Assembly: GCF_003814915.1 (NCBI RefSeq)
Contig: NZ_RKQK01000001.1
Span: forward strand, 62,001 to 126,000
Direction: 5' to 3'
DNA length: 64,000 nt
Source: Pacificibacter maritimus
Lineage (GTDB): Bacteria > Pseudomonadota > Alphaproteobacteria > Rhodobacterales > Rhodobacteraceae
The notes under the pieces were generated by a model. It had not been told where the DNA came from, did not search any database, and saw only the letters and a program-made list of their open reading frames with translations. The translations under genes were made by a program, and so were the position numbers. Shown here one piece after another: positions 40,601 to 45,168 of this stretch (positions are counted from its first letter, which is position 1; every line of letters begins with the position of its first letter).

Positions 40601-40697
40601 GAGCATTGGCCCCCGCTTTAAAGGCGCCTGCCTTTTCCCAGTCGTCATAAATCCGCTTTTCTGCCGCTTTTGCGTCAAAAATTTTGTCCATGGTCAT
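37671..40697 (-). CDS. valS: Valyl-tRNA synthetase
   Basis: A 1008-residue class I synthetase. Seen: [17 protein letters not shown] (HIGH box, about 41-57), a long editing domain (roughly 200-400), [14 protein letters not shown] (KMSKS box near 665), the anticodon-binding helical domain and a C-terminal coiled coil with [17 protein letters not shown]. The ribosome-binding site is AGGCGG, 6 nt before ATG 40697. The coiled-coil arm is present and full length. It is transcribed alone. Confidence 0.98.
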
Positions 40698-40854
40698 GTT
40701 AAACCGCCTAATACGTCATTCCTGTTGCTGCGTTATGTACCGCGCAGACGCACTGAGGGAAAGGGTGAAACCCGTTGATGTAGATCTCCTGAAGGACCAC
40801 GACCGCCACGTTTTTCGCCAATTACGGTGTTTAAGCGTCTTGGCCCTAGGAGAA

Positions 40855-42057
40855 ATGCTTATGCGACAGTCGAATTCTGGTATCCAAAACAAGCTTGATA
40901 GCCTTGTCGCACGGCGGGGGCATCACGGCGCCGCTTTTTCGGCTTACCGTGAAAATGATGGGGCAGAGTTTCATTTCAAAAGCGGAAATCTGACAGCTCG
41001 CAAGGCATATTTTGGTATGAGCACAACGCATTTATATGTCACTGCGATCATTTTACAGATGTGTGCCGAGGGAAAGCTGGCGCTCGATACGCCTTTTACC
41101 GCCTATTTGACGGGGCACAGATACTGCGAAAATCTGCATGTCCTAGCGGGGGAGGATTACACCGAAAACGTGACTTTGCGTCATTTGATGCAGCATCGTT
41201 CTGGCCTACAGGGGCGGCCTTTGTTTGATCAGGCTGTCTACGGCAGGGGCAAGGATCTTGATGCTGCATGGACTGTTGAAGATGTCGTGGCGCGGGTGCG
41301 CAGCCACGGGGCCATTTGCGCGCCAGGTGGGCGTCGCCGTGCCCTCTATAGTGATGCGCATTTTCACCTGTTGGGTAAGGTGATCGAAGAAATTGATGGC
41401 ATGTCATTTGCAAAAGCTGTGCAGTGCCGCATCACGCAGCCGCTGGGGTTGACGTCGACCTATGTTTATTGTGATCCCTCTGATCGGCGCCCAGCGACTT
41501 TGATCGGCCGCCGCGGACCGCTTCATGTGCCTTTGGCGATGGCATCCTTGCAAGCAGAAAGCGGAATTGTCACCACATCGCGCGAAGCATTGCTGTTTTG
41601 TCGGGCCTTTTTTGAAGGCTATCTTTTTGATCGCAAGTACCTGAAATATATCGAAGAATTTTCACCAATGCGGGCAGGTATTTCATACGGATTGGGGTTT
41701 ATGCAAGCAAAGCTGCCGTGGATCGCAAGGTTGCCTGCTGCGCTGGGCGCGCCGACAGGGATATTGCAGCAAGCGCCACGATTTTCGGGGTATCTCGCCG
41801 GAAACAATTCATTCTTATTTTTTGCACCTGAGGAAAGAATATATATCGCGGGCACTTTGAATAAGATGGCTTCGCCCAATAGTTGCCTGCGCTTGTTGAC
41901 CGAATGTGTGGAGGCGATTGCGCAGCATAAAATCGCGCCTGTTCAACCGCCAGCTGCCCCGCGTGTTGCGCGTTCATTTGGTGCGAATGGGGTGGGCAGC
42001 ACGCCGTCGCAGCCCGTGAAGGCGCGTTGGTCTTTGAGGCAGGTTGTCCAAAGCTGA
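40855..42057 (+). CDS. Beta-lactamase-fold serine hydrolase with altered active-site motifs
   Basis: A 400-residue class C beta-lactamase/esterase-like protein. The helix after the nucleophile (YVTAIILQMCAEGKLALDTPF) and LMQHRSGLQG place it clearly in the family. The SxxK motif reads S56-T-T-H59, so the general-base lysine is histidine, and the YxN motif reads Y165-S-D167. No signal peptide is visible, so it may be cytoplasmic. The ATG at 40855 has AGGAGAA just upstream; the open frame before it overlaps the valS promoter. It could be an esterase with unusual chemistry or a non-catalytic binding protein. Confidence 0.78.
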   Translation: MLMRQSNSGIQNKLDSLVARRGHHGAAFSAYRENDGAEFHFKSGNLTARKAYFGMSTTHLYVTAIILQMCAEGKLALDTPFTAYLTGHRYCENLHVLAGEDYTENVTLRHLMQHRSGLQGRPLFDQAVYGRGKDLDAAWTVEDVVARVRSHGAICAPGGRRRALYSDAHFHLLGKVIEEIDGMSFAKAVQCRITQPLGLTSTYVYCDPSDRRPATLIGRRGPLHVPLAMASLQAESGIVTTSREALLFCRAFFEGYLFDRKYLKYIEEFSPMRAGISYGLGFMQAKLPWIARLPAALGAPTGILQQAPRFSGYLAGNNSFLFFAPEERIYIAGTLNKMASPNSCLRLLTECVEAIAQHKIAPVQPPAAPRVARSFGANGVGSTPSQPVKARWSLRQVVQS

Positions 42058-42117: not shown

Positions 42118-42549
42118 TTAAATCGAGCGGTCGAATTTAACGCTGAGGTGAATCAGACTTTCGATATCCTGCACCTCTGTAATGGCTGTGATTTGATCGA
42201 GTGTTTGATCAATTTCTTCAGTGCTGGCGCAGGCGATTTGTGCAATTAAATCAACACGCCCCGTCGAGGTCGCGACCATTTCTACTTCTGGGATGCTTTT
42301 AAGTTTGGCAACGACGCTGACAGAGGCGCGCGATTCGCAATATATCAAAACAGTGGCTTTGATACGCCGCGCTAAGGCGACATCCCCAAGCTTGATCGTG
42401 TAGCCTGCAATTGTGCCGTTGGTTTCAAGTTTTTCAAGACGGGCCTGAACCGTGGAGCGCGCCACTTTAAAACGGCGCGCCAATCGTGACACCGAAGTTG
42501 ATGAATCAGTTGCCATCGCCGTCAGGATTTTTTGGTCGAGATCGTCCAT
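42118..42549 (-). CDS. Lrp/AsnC-family transcriptional regulator
   Basis: A 143-residue regulator: an N-terminal helix-turn-helix (DLDQKILTAMATDSSTSVSR, RFKVARSTVQARL) and a C-terminal RAM ligand domain. It diverges from the ornithine decarboxylase gene with 278 nt between start codons, so control of polyamine or amino-acid supply is plausible. Paired direct repeats and a hairpin lie in the shared region. The ligand is probably an amino acid such as ornithine, arginine or lysine. Confidence 0.92.
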   Translation of the reverse strand: MDDLDQKILTAMATDSSTSVSRLARRFKVARSTVQARLEKLETNGTIAGYTIKLGDVALARRIKATVLIYCESRASVSVVAKLKSIPEVEMVATSTGRVDLIAQIACASTEEIDQTLDQITAITEVQDIESLIHLSVKFDRSI

Positions 42550-42570
42550 ATTTTAACCTTATCAGTGTTG

Positions 42571-42641
42571 CCACGGGGATGTTTCCGTGGGGGCAGCCTA
42601 TCAGAGCTTACAATTTGACTTCAATACCTAACAATTTAACT
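42571..42641. promoter_or_regulatory. Hairpin and paired direct repeats between the Lrp gene and the decarboxylase gene
   Basis: CCACGG (42571-42576) pairs with CCGTGG (42585-42590) around 8 nt. To its right ACAATTTGACT (42610-42620) and ACAATTTAACT (42631-42641) agree at 10 of 11 bases and start exactly 21 bp apart, two helical turns. Lrp-family proteins bind such phased repeats. The TTGACT in the first copy could also be a -35 box. Confidence 0.45.
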
Positions 42642-42677
42642 GACATTATGTACATTTCAACTCTTTTTATCGGTGAA

Positions 42678-42764
42678 ATGACGATGCATATATCCGGAAC
42701 TTGTTTTCAGGATCAAAGGGCAGCGGCGACGCTCGTACCTGGCCTGGTTTGGATTAACGCGTAA
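42678..42764 (+). CDS. Putative 28-residue leader peptide upstream of ornithine decarboxylase
   Basis: An ATG with GGTGAA directly before it opens a 28-codon frame starting MTMHISGTCFQDQ and ending PGLVWINA; a second ATG lies two codons later. The TAA stop (42762-42764) falls in the loop of a predicted hairpin. The encoded peptide resembles no known leader that I can name. Leader peptides that sense ornithine control speF in gammaproteobacteria, so an analogous role is possible. The evidence is position and structure only. Confidence 0.4.
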   Translation: MTMHISGTCFQDQRAAATLVPGLVWINA

Positions 42765-42827
42765 GCGCATTCCCAACCGGACACCCCGGGTAAGATAGTG
42801 GCTGCAACTGTTGGTGAGGACACGCTA
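42720..42827 (+). promoter_or_regulatory. speF-type structured leader of the ornithine decarboxylase mRNA
   Basis: An RNA motif called speF has been described upstream of ornithine decarboxylase genes in Alphaproteobacteria. The region here is strongly structured: AGCG/CGCT (42722-42733) with loop GCGA; GGTTTGGA (42746-42753) with TCCCAACC (42771-42778), one mismatch; and CCGG (42777-42780) with CCGG (42786-42789). The last two stems share bases 42777-42778 and cannot form together, which suggests a switch. No T-run follows, so control would be at translation or by Rho. Assignment to the Rfam family is from memory and context. Confidence 0.6.
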
Positions 42828-44006
42828 ATGGGGCTTTCGAAAACACTTTGGGCATCGCCCGCAGACTTTCTTCGTACACATTCACCTGAGCATCCGGTGA
42901 TGTTGTTTTCGCCTGAAACACTTCAGGCCTGCGCGCAAGAATTCTTGCAAGGTTTCCCTGGACTTGTGACCTATGCGGTCAAAGCCAATCCTGAGGAAGA
43001 AGTGTTGATCAACTTGATCAATGCTGGGATCAGTGGTTTCGATGTGGCTTCTCCTGTCGAGATGGACACCATCAAACGTTTGGCCCCTCATGCAGCTTTG
43101 CACTACAACAACCCAGTGCGTTCACGCACCGAGATCAAACATGCTGTGGCGCTGGGCGTTAAATCATACTCAGTTGATAGTCACTCTGAGCTGGTCAAGC
43201 TGGGCGAATTGGTGCCTGCGGATGGCGTAGAAATGGCTGTGCGGTTCAAATTGCCTGTGGATGGGGCGGCTTATAACTTTGGTGCCAAATTTGGTGCGAC
43301 TGTTGAAAAGGCTATAGAATTGGTCACTTTGGCCGATCAGCTGGGCTATGACGTGTCACTCAACTTTCACCCTGGTACACAGTGTACAGATCCGAAAGCT
43401 TGGGAAACCTACATTCAAACAGCAGCTAAGATCGCTGAAGCCACTGGCGTGCGTATTCATCGTTTGAATGTTGGTGGCGGCTTCCCCTCCCACCGTTTGA
43501 ATGAAGTTTTGCCGCAGCTCGCGCAGACATTCGCCTTGATCGAACGTGTCACCCATGAAGCTTTTGGTGTCGAAGCAGCGCCAGCTTTGATCTGTGAACC
43601 TGGTCGGTCGCTGGTGGCGGAAAGCTACACTTTGATCACCCGTGTGAAATCCATCCGCGACGATGCGCATGTGTTTTTGAACGATGGTGTTTACGGTGGC
43701 CTGTCTGAACTGCACCTTGTGGGTGTGATTGATCGCATTAAGGTTTATGGCCCTTACGGCAATCTGCGCCAAGGCGATCTAGTATCACGCACTGTTTTCG
43801 GACCGACTTGTGACAGCACCGATAAATTGCCATCAGAATTGGGTTTCCCTGCTGATATGGAAGAAGAAGATCACGTGGTCTTCTCAGGCCTTGGGGCATA
43901 TTCTTTGGCCACTGCCACACGGTTTAACGGCTTTGGCAATATCTCAATCGAGACAATGCAGGCACTTGTGAAACCTGAGACAGACAAAGAAGTCCTTTAC
44001 GCATAA
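42828..44006 (+). CDS. Ornithine/lysine decarboxylase, fold-type III (eukaryotic-like)
   Basis: A 392-residue PLP enzyme that decarboxylates L-ornithine to putrescine, the entry to polyamines. Seen: the N-terminal barrel with the PLP lysine K52 in TYAVKAN, HPGTQC, the glycine loop NVGGGFPSH, ICEPGRSLVAES, and the C-terminal FGPTCDSTD with the subunit-interface cysteine. The ATG at 42828 has GAGGA in front; a GTG ten codons earlier is less likely. It has its own structured leader and a strong terminator. Relaxed lysine activity is common in this branch. Confidence 0.93.
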   Translation: MGLSKTLWASPADFLRTHSPEHPVMLFSPETLQACAQEFLQGFPGLVTYAVKANPEEEVLINLINAGISGFDVASPVEMDTIKRLAPHAALHYNNPVRSRTEIKHAVALGVKSYSVDSHSELVKLGELVPADGVEMAVRFKLPVDGAAYNFGAKFGATVEKAIELVTLADQLGYDVSLNFHPGTQCTDPKAWETYIQTAAKIAEATGVRIHRLNVGGGFPSHRLNEVLPQLAQTFALIERVTHEAFGVEAAPALICEPGRSLVAESYTLITRVKSIRDDAHVFLNDGVYGGLSELHLVGVIDRIKVYGPYGNLRQGDLVSRTVFGPTCDSTDKLPSELGFPADMEEEDHVVFSGLGAYSLATATRFNGFGNISIETMQALVKPETDKEVLYA

Positions 44007-44078: not shown

Positions 44079-44127
44079 CGGTTTCGGGTTGCTTAAGTTT
44101 CGAGATGCTTCAAAGGACACGCAAACC

Positions 44128-45168
44128 TTGCCAATTAAATCTGTTGTGCGCCGTCTTTGGCATCTTTTAGATTTTAAAAAACAAGTCACCACATCAGGCG
44201 GCGTGCATGGGCGCGGGCCGATTAGCCATGTCATTATTATGGATGGCACCCTGTCGTCTTTGGAACCTGGGTTTGAAACCAATGCGGGGCTGACCTATAA
44301 GTTATGCGCCGAGGCCGCTGATATCGGCGGAGAGGGCAGCAATATGTTAGTGCGCTATGAGGCTGGCATCCAGTGGCGCACATGGCGCGACACAATGAGT
44401 GTTATCGAAGGGCGCGGCATCAACAAACAAATCATGCGGGTCTACGGTGGTTTGGCATCGCGCTATCGGGCAGGGGATAAGATCTATCTGTTTGGCTATT
44501 CGCGGGGCGGCTATGCCGTGCGATCTTTGGCAGGATTTATTGATAAGGTCGGGCTTTTAGAAGCGGATAAAGCGACTGAGCGCAATATCCGCACTGCCTA
44601 TCGCCATTATCAAAAAGACCCCCTATCGGACAGCGCACGACAATTTGCCAAGGCCAATTGCCACGAAACCATTTCTATCGATATGTTAGGCATCTGGGAT
44701 ACCGTGGCAGCTGTGGGGATGCATTTTCCTGTGATCTGGCGCTTTTCCAAAGTGTTCCATGAATTCTATGACAATAAGCCACCCTTATGCGCCAAACGGG
44801 TCTATCATGCCTTGGCCTACCACGAACGCCGCCGCGCCTATCAGCCTGTGATGTTTGAAACGAATCCTGAGGCGCATCAGGTCTTAGAACAAATGTGGTT
44901 TCGCGGGTCGCATTCCGATGTGGGGGGGCAATTATCTGGCCACAACCCAGAACGCAAATTGTCGAATGCGACGATGGTCTGGATGTTGGAAAAAGCCGTC
45001 CACGCAGGGCTAACCTTGCCCGCGGACTGGCGCAGTCGCTATTTGGCTGACCCGAATGGGCGTTCGATTGGAATGAGCAAGGGGTGGGGCAAATTCTTTT
45101 GGCTCAGACGCAAGCGGATCGTGGGGCGTGATCCATCCGAAACGTTGCATCCCACATTGAAACAATAA
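44128..45168 (+). CDS. DUF2235-domain alpha/beta hydrolase
   Basis: About 346 residues. The DUF2235 core is clear: IIMDGTLSSLEPG, YEAGIQW, the nucleophile elbow LFGYSRGGYAVRSLAGFI, DMLGIWDTVAAVG and the late WFRGSHSDVGG with histidine and aspartate. The same fold is used by type VI phospholipase effectors, but no secretion genes lie nearby and no signal peptide is visible, so this is probably a housekeeping hydrolase. No ATG is suitable: a TTG at 44128 behind AAAGGAC is chosen, an earlier TTG at 44089 is possible. Confidence 0.85.
   Translation: MPIKSVVRRLWHLLDFKKQVTTSGGVHGRGPISHVIIMDGTLSSLEPGFETNAGLTYKLCAEAADIGGEGSNMLVRYEAGIQWRTWRDTMSVIEGRGINKQIMRVYGGLASRYRAGDKIYLFGYSRGGYAVRSLAGFIDKVGLLEADKATERNIRTAYRHYQKDPLSDSARQFAKANCHETISIDMLGIWDTVAAVGMHFPVIWRFSKVFHEFYDNKPPLCAKRVYHALAYHERRRAYQPVMFETNPEAHQVLEQMWFRGSHSDVGGQLSGHNPERKLSNATMVWMLEKAVHAGLTLPADWRSRYLADPNGRSIGMSKGWGKFFWLRRKRIVGRDPSETLHPTLKQ

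Follow-up and report, generated by a model that had tools for sequence, protein, structure and literature searches.

Translational riboswitches combine a 5' domain with an expression platform at the start site, and usually bury the SD rather than the AUG. Several leader RNAs have been described at genes for ornithine decarboxylase (ODC). The speF RNA is an alphaproteobacterial leader of a COG0019 ODC in which a conserved block near the putative transcript start precedes a long stem-loop, and more than 150 nt separate it from its gene. The speF RNA of A. tumefaciens bound none of ornithine, lysine, diaminopimelate, putrescine, cadaverine and spermidine, according to the accessible part of the report (Corbino et al. 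2005, PMC1273637). The alphaproteobacterial odc1 RNA (uORF-25-1) is described, in the accessible part of its source, as an RNA that sequesters the RBS and has UUG-N2-UUG starts together with a conserved uORF of 11 residues (PMC8632094). In gammaproteobacterial speF, the SpeFL/orf34 leader forms an inhibitory structure at the initiation region of the ODC and needs a translated leader peptide, as far as the accessible text of PMC6386406 and PMC8429421 goes.

We analysed a window of 64,000 nucleotides from Pacificibacter maritimus (Rhodobacteraceae). The original prediction had seen in it a regulated-looking ODC leader with two competing stems, a possible sensor peptide and a link to the speF RNA. 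The frame, stems and letters that it gave are all present in the window. The two overlapping stems are kept by relatives and survive here, and the sensor peptide and the speF link do not. From sequence comparison, the leader looks like a new control element, with no match in Rfam, and not like a sensor peptide. It is a member of a conserved RNA element that lies directly 5' of the same ODC. The comparison supports the predicted promoter position, the 5' block and a hairpin at the start codon (P5), as well as two putative middle stems (P3 and P4A) in the lineage of the window. As far as the published descriptions are accessible, the element resembles speF in being an alphaproteobacterial leader of a COG0019 ODC that has a conserved block near the putative transcript start and no known ligand; unlike speF, it includes the start codon. 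It resembles odc1 in that both are alphaproteobacterial ODC leaders with a presumed role in translation start and no known ligand, and is set apart by the description of odc1: it has one AUG, no conserved uORF, a paired start codon and an SD in the loop. With SpeFL/orf34 it shares a structure at the ODC initiation region, but not the need for a translated peptide. As in translational riboswitches, a putative 5' sensor domain would precede a platform at the start site, but here the AUG is buried and ligand binding is hypothetical.

The gene behind the leader (42828-44006, forward strand) encodes a PLP-dependent ODC of the Orn/DAP/Arg decarboxylase family 2 (Pfam PF02784 and PF00278). Among solved structures, the chains closest to it are those of ornithine decarboxylases (E 1.6e-34), and it scores under every NCBIfam cut-off. 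An Lrp/AsnC-type regulator (PF01037, PF13404) is encoded divergently at 42118-42549 on the reverse strand and, judging by its position, could plausibly regulate transcription from the ODC promoter. Between this gene and the promoter (42600-42665), the window and its genus relatives L005-L016 have TTTGACC..TCGTCAAAATGACC-like boxes in common, which are plausible candidate binding sites for the divergent regulator. Downstream of the ODC, a frame of 359 aa (44089-45165, forward strand) lacks any NCBIfam match; we take its GYSRGG motif to resemble that of an alpha/beta hydrolase. The frame at 40684-42054 (forward strand) encodes a serine hydrolase resembling beta-lactamase/PBP4B-type proteins, under all curated cut-offs.

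The distribution of the element was studied with a covariance model built from 28 leaders (R1), whose sole structure is the start-codon hairpin. At E ≤ 1e-9, R1 matched 69 of the 394 sampled genomes of the family, once in each except G628, which has two matches (70 in total). An ODC follows all 70 matches, of which 68 were located with the RNA model only, and those of G000 and G015 came from the ODC search. By the listed coordinates the ODC starts 7-8 nt before the end of the R1 match (by translation in L120). The ODC search itself gave a match in 52 of the 61 genomes of the sample of relatives, paralogues counted, and 50 loci were added from named records. A close ODC is present in 19 of the 20 sampled genomes of the same genus, the window's own included, and all 19 have the leader. 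Named strains with the element belong to Cereibacter, Celeribacter, Thioclava and Pacificibacter. Twelve matches of the family search were weaker than 1e-9, and nine genomes had weaker matches only. One weak match (L023, genome G026) is followed by an ODC, and tblastn of the fetched stretch found none behind three others (L160 in G693, L161 in G638 and L165 in G061); L161 gave one 23% piece on the reverse strand (E 0.003). When R1 was run on 289 genomes of the class, the only strong match was that of the window's own genome, and the next best scored 25.7 bits. The two best class matches outside the family, L163 (which starts with CAGGAAAAGGGCG) and L164, had no ODC within the fetched stretch; the check covered these two, among class matches that also include G183 and G242. 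When presence of the element is mapped on a 67-row ODC tree, four changes are required, versus 14.6 with shuffled labels; such label changes alone neither show nor exclude a single origin.

At a profile score of at least 25 we collected 130 loci, some genomes being represented by both a named and an unnamed record. Two of the loci, L154 and L156, lie before an ODC but were not caught by the start pattern; the other 128 loci gave 105 unique elements. The analyses below used subsets of these: 99 anchored leaders for the promoter, uORF and AUG-pairing counts, 91 unique sequences in alignment A2 and 37 in alignment A3, 54 anchored leaders (38 unique) for P4A, 37 (23 unique) for a Rhodobacter-like stem, and 41 (35 unique) for P3. 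Leaders were picked by an [AG]TGGG pattern; among the 105 unique ones the ODC begins with AUG, except in L063 and L125, which have GUG.

The best-supported element of the leader, absent from the list of the original prediction, is the start-codon hairpin P5 (42808-42831, forward strand). It pairs 42808-42816 with 42823-42831, so that the AUG (42828-42830) lies in the stem and the SD-like GAGGA (42816-42820) mostly in the loop. In the 91 unique 3' ends of A2, ten pairs set the AUG and the letters that follow it opposite the stretch around and before UUGG. Standard pairs form in 93.8% of 901 cells, versus 91.1% in shuffles (none of 500 as high), and in 29-54% of cells when the partner is slid. 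Cells changed on both sides numbered 31, versus 9.2 in shuffles (0/500), where cells count sequences and not events. Five pairs changed on both sides, versus 2.3 (3/500), and further pair types were not above shuffles (14 versus 13.3, 192/500). For the outermost pair, whose 3' base is the synonymous third position of Gly2 (GGA/GGG), 58 sequences have U-A and 22 have C-G, while 11 leave it unpaired. Since the 3' strand of P5 doubles as coding sequence, part of its constancy comes from the protein. When the 99 leaders were folded with the coding start, the probability that the AUG is paired averaged 0.90, versus 0.57 in dinucleotide-shuffled leaders; it exceeded the mean of the leader's own eight shuffles in 92 of the 99, was above 0.8 in 81, and reached 0.96 in the window. 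The mean paired probability of the SD across the same 99 leaders was 0.15. As a whole, the leader folds with ordinary energy, at z -1.08 and -1.55 only modestly below shuffles. P5 is not intact everywhere: L046, L055, L142 and L146 are examples of leaders in which it is disrupted or displaced, and by eye it seems shifted to CAG/CUG in L059, L061 and L107. Run on crude groups or on all lineages at once, RNAalifold returned mainly P5.

A promoter is predicted at 42666-42692 (forward strand) from the spacing in relatives, with a -35-like TTTATC (42666-42671) and a -10-like CATATA (42687-42692). The best -10-like hexamer is CATAT[GCA] in 83 of the 99 anchored leaders (CATATG in 49) and sits 13-16 nt 5' of the CAGGA block in 91. 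A scan with an E. coli-type consensus missed this promoter. Transcripts usually begin 6-8 nt after the -10 hexamer, and this rule puts the predicted transcript start near 42699, some 8 nt 5' of the block. The 5' block itself, CAGGA..AAGGGC..ACCUGGCCUGGUU (42708-42749, forward strand), was delimited by profile and model matches, and is longer in the window and its genus than the 36-nt form of most relatives. The minimum-energy fold contains P0, a weak pairing on the forward strand of GCGGC (42723-42727) with GCUGC (42801-42805), whose partner is lost in several relatives (by eye). It also contains P2, in which UACCUGG of the block (42736-42742) pairs with CCGGGUA (42786-42792, forward strand); in relatives the P2 partner reads CCGGG or CCAGG (by eye, uncounted). 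The ODC homologues L023, L067, L071 and L078 have no clear 5' block. In L023 and L071 the UUGG..CCAA start-codon hairpin is still visible by eye, hinting that this hairpin is older than the block.

In the window, the middle domain of the element holds the two stems of the original prediction. The first joins GGUUUGGA (42746-42753) to UCCCAACC (42771-42778) with seven of eight pairs and one U.C mismatch, and the second joins CCGG (42777-42780) to CCGG (42786-42789). They overlap at 42777-42778, hence exclude each other, and both are kept in relatives above chance. The minimum-energy fold holds the first stem as 42744-42749/42775-42780 plus 42751-42753/42771-42773, and gives the 3' strand of the second to UACCUGG of the block instead, as P2. 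We term P3 the first stem in its extended form (5' strand 42744-42753, 3' strand 42771-42780, forward strand), on the basis of the fold and of duplex energies. The second stem, termed P4A, is the hairpin CCGG-acacc-CCGG (42777-42789, forward strand), which excludes P3 at 42777-42778 and P2 at 42786-42789. A small hairpin, CGC-GUAA-GCG (42758-42767, forward strand), has a tetraloop of the GNRA type; a pattern asking for such loops found it in 48 of the 105 leaders (GUAA in 36, GCAA in 9, GCAU in 2 and GCGA in 1).

Two subgroups of A3 are one base out of register, therefore P4A was counted by anchors and P3 was assessed by duplex energies. The P4A anchor pattern itself demands [AGT]AC[CT], and P3 strand counts taken from anchors are not evidence. 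P3 had a mean duplex energy of -9.71 kcal/mol across the 35 unique leaders in which the small hairpin occurs, versus -9.03 (sd 0.29) with exchanged partners and -6.0 with shuffled 3' strands. None of 300 partner permutations was as low (lowest -9.70), related leaders not being independent. P4A has an exact Watson-Crick partner in 46 of the 54 anchored leaders among the 105, with CCGG/CCGG, CCCG/CGGG and CUGG/CCAG among the forms. Counting unique pairs, 31 of 38 match, versus a permuted mean of 21.2 and a maximum of 28 (500 permutations), with the same dependence between related leaders. All six leaders with CUGG have the form CUGG...CCAG, and the changed base serves both stems, with G-U in P3 and A-U in P4A. 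These results support alternation or shared use of P3 and P4A, which is not proof of switching.

The middle domain varies between lineages, and P3 and P4A are mostly not seen in the Rhodobacter-like group. There, an alternative stem closing the middle has 127 of 161 cells paired, which is marginal relative to shuffles (mean 120.9, sd 3.2, maximum 130). The same-genus leader L014 (genome G017, reverse strand, about 2660-2767) has an extra hairpin of about 45 nt between CCUGG and GGA of the middle domain. Of a conserved sensor domain joined to an expression platform, the platform, P5, is well supported, and the sensor fold is supported in the lineage of the window only and marginal elsewhere.

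We consider that the leader probably controls the translation of ODC in cis, as a structured RNA that sequesters the start codon. In the mRNA begun at the predicted start, the AUG and the two G after it would pair, within P5, with the sequence around UUGG, and the SD would stay in the loop. This would be the off state: a ribosome arriving there would find the SD accessible but the AUG hidden in the stem. Sensing would fall to the 5' block together with the middle domain, their folding deciding whether P5 stands. This might occur by two routes. In the first, ACCUGG of the block and P4A would contend for one downstream strand (P2 versus P4A). In the second, AAGGG of the block would compete with AUGGG for the pyrimidine tract before UUGG. 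Both AAGGG and AUGGG can pair with UCUU/CUCU at this place in many relatives (by eye, uncounted). The tract of the window reads AACU, and P0, P2, P3 and P5 coexist in its predicted fold; the competition between AAGGG and AUGGG is therefore not general in that form. Because the element is seen only at ODC, the most likely signal is a compound that polyamine synthesis consumes or produces; a protein, another ligand or temperature are also possible. No terminator-like site was found in the leader of the window, and transcription attenuation was set aside for this leader.

A more specific version of translational control is possible, and we put it forward tentatively. The element may be a further independent class of RNA at the alphaproteobacterial ODC, a metabolite switch in which a near-invariant 5' block of the mRNA competes with the start region (AAGGG versus AUGGG, ACCUGG versus P4A). 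A ligand would decide whether the start codon is buried, and the codon of Gly2 (GGG/GGA) would co-evolve with the leader.

The same block may be read otherwise. A protein or an sRNA acting in trans could bind it as an operator and stabilise or open P5, in an RNA that binds no small molecule. Allowing up to six mismatches, 75 of the 105 leaders retain the block at its 36-nt length, and in 53 of these 75 it is identical, while the surrounding structure varies, as expected of a recognition sequence. That the element is seen at one gene only counts somewhat against such an operator and does not decide; we regard it as rather unlikely. It is less probable still that P5 merely tunes translation passively or senses heat, i.e., that a G-U-rich hairpin sets a low or temperature-dependent rate of translation with no sensor domain. 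P5 is indeed rich in G-U pairs and, by eye, persists in leaders whose block is absent or degraded (L023 and L071 are examples), but the constant block and the middle stems would be left unexplained.

A diverged speF (RF00518) or odc1 RNA would concern the same enzyme family in the same class of bacteria, and speF also has, in the accessible text of PMC1273637, its conserved block near the putative transcript start and then a long stem-loop. When the whole window was searched against Rfam, just two tRNAs reached the gathering score. The link to speF made by the original prediction found no backing in this search, which gave no match to RF00518 or any other family in 42300-43000 at E ≤ 10. In 12 relatives searched against Rfam, none of 11 weak matches falls on the leader. 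RF00518 matched none of 149 genomes of the family, a silence that alone is no proof, and 11 of 289 genomes of the class (nine over the cut-off). Conversely, R1 was run on ten of these eleven speF loci (the cut-off locus L081 was left out) and gave one weak match, in L088, of 10.9 bits, on the other strand and away from speF. No model matched significantly in either direction. The UUG-N2-UUG start pair of odc1 was not found either: the ODC of the window starts with AUG, and no start codon lies 5 nt before it. We therefore hold descent from speF or odc1 to be very improbable. The class relative L030 has TTG-AA-TTG near its ODC start, the start-codon architecture described for odc1, and may serve as an odc1 comparison. 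The element may be among the further motifs of the study in PMC8632094. In the open-licence literature searched, no title or abstract start among the papers listed described it.

The sensor peptide was the centre of the original prediction. The 28-codon frame exists (42678-42764, forward strand; ATG 42678-42680, TAA 42762-42764), with an RBS-like GGTGAA just before it (42672-42677), and it ends in the loop of P3. We judged that it is not a gene, from its position, its non-conservation and the placement of its stop. Its start and the GGTGAA fall within the conserved promoter-like stretch: the ATG is about 21 nt 5' of the predicted transcript start, between the -35-like TTTATC and the -10-like CATATA. 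Within Pacificibacter, neither start, frame nor stop is kept, which is the loss of frame that the original prediction had itself named as refuting the peptide. L002 lacks the ATG, has a one-base deletion and reads CAA in place of the TAA, and in L003 the reading frame differs. The apparent stop belongs to the GUAA/GCAA tetraloop, whose loop type is kept where the stop is not. The 36-nt block does not look coding: with 19 distinct substitutions, no frame is clearly enriched in synonymous changes (4/19, 3/15 and 6/15, versus expected fractions of 0.27, 0.23 and 0.28). No ATG at all occurs from the predicted transcript start to the ODC start in 43 of the 99 leaders. A closed ATG uORF of at least six codons follows the predicted transcript start in 13 of the 99, and none is conserved, by eye, in the rows printed. 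An ornithine-sensing leader peptide of the SpeFL kind is on these grounds scarcely credible. Two other frames were tried and rejected, as neither has a conserved start or stop or a clear synonymous bias: one from the AUG of CATATG, and the block frame QEKGGSYAPGLV, which has an ATG, GTG or TTG before it in 30 of the 67 leaders with CAGGAAAAGGGCGG.

The compactness of the element, its near-invariant block in most relatives and its presence in named strains make the hypotheses of a ligand, a protein or temperature directly testable. It would be another ODC leader RNA in a single bacterial class, beside speF and odc1. This would suggest that RNA control has been invented repeatedly at the committed step of putrescine synthesis.
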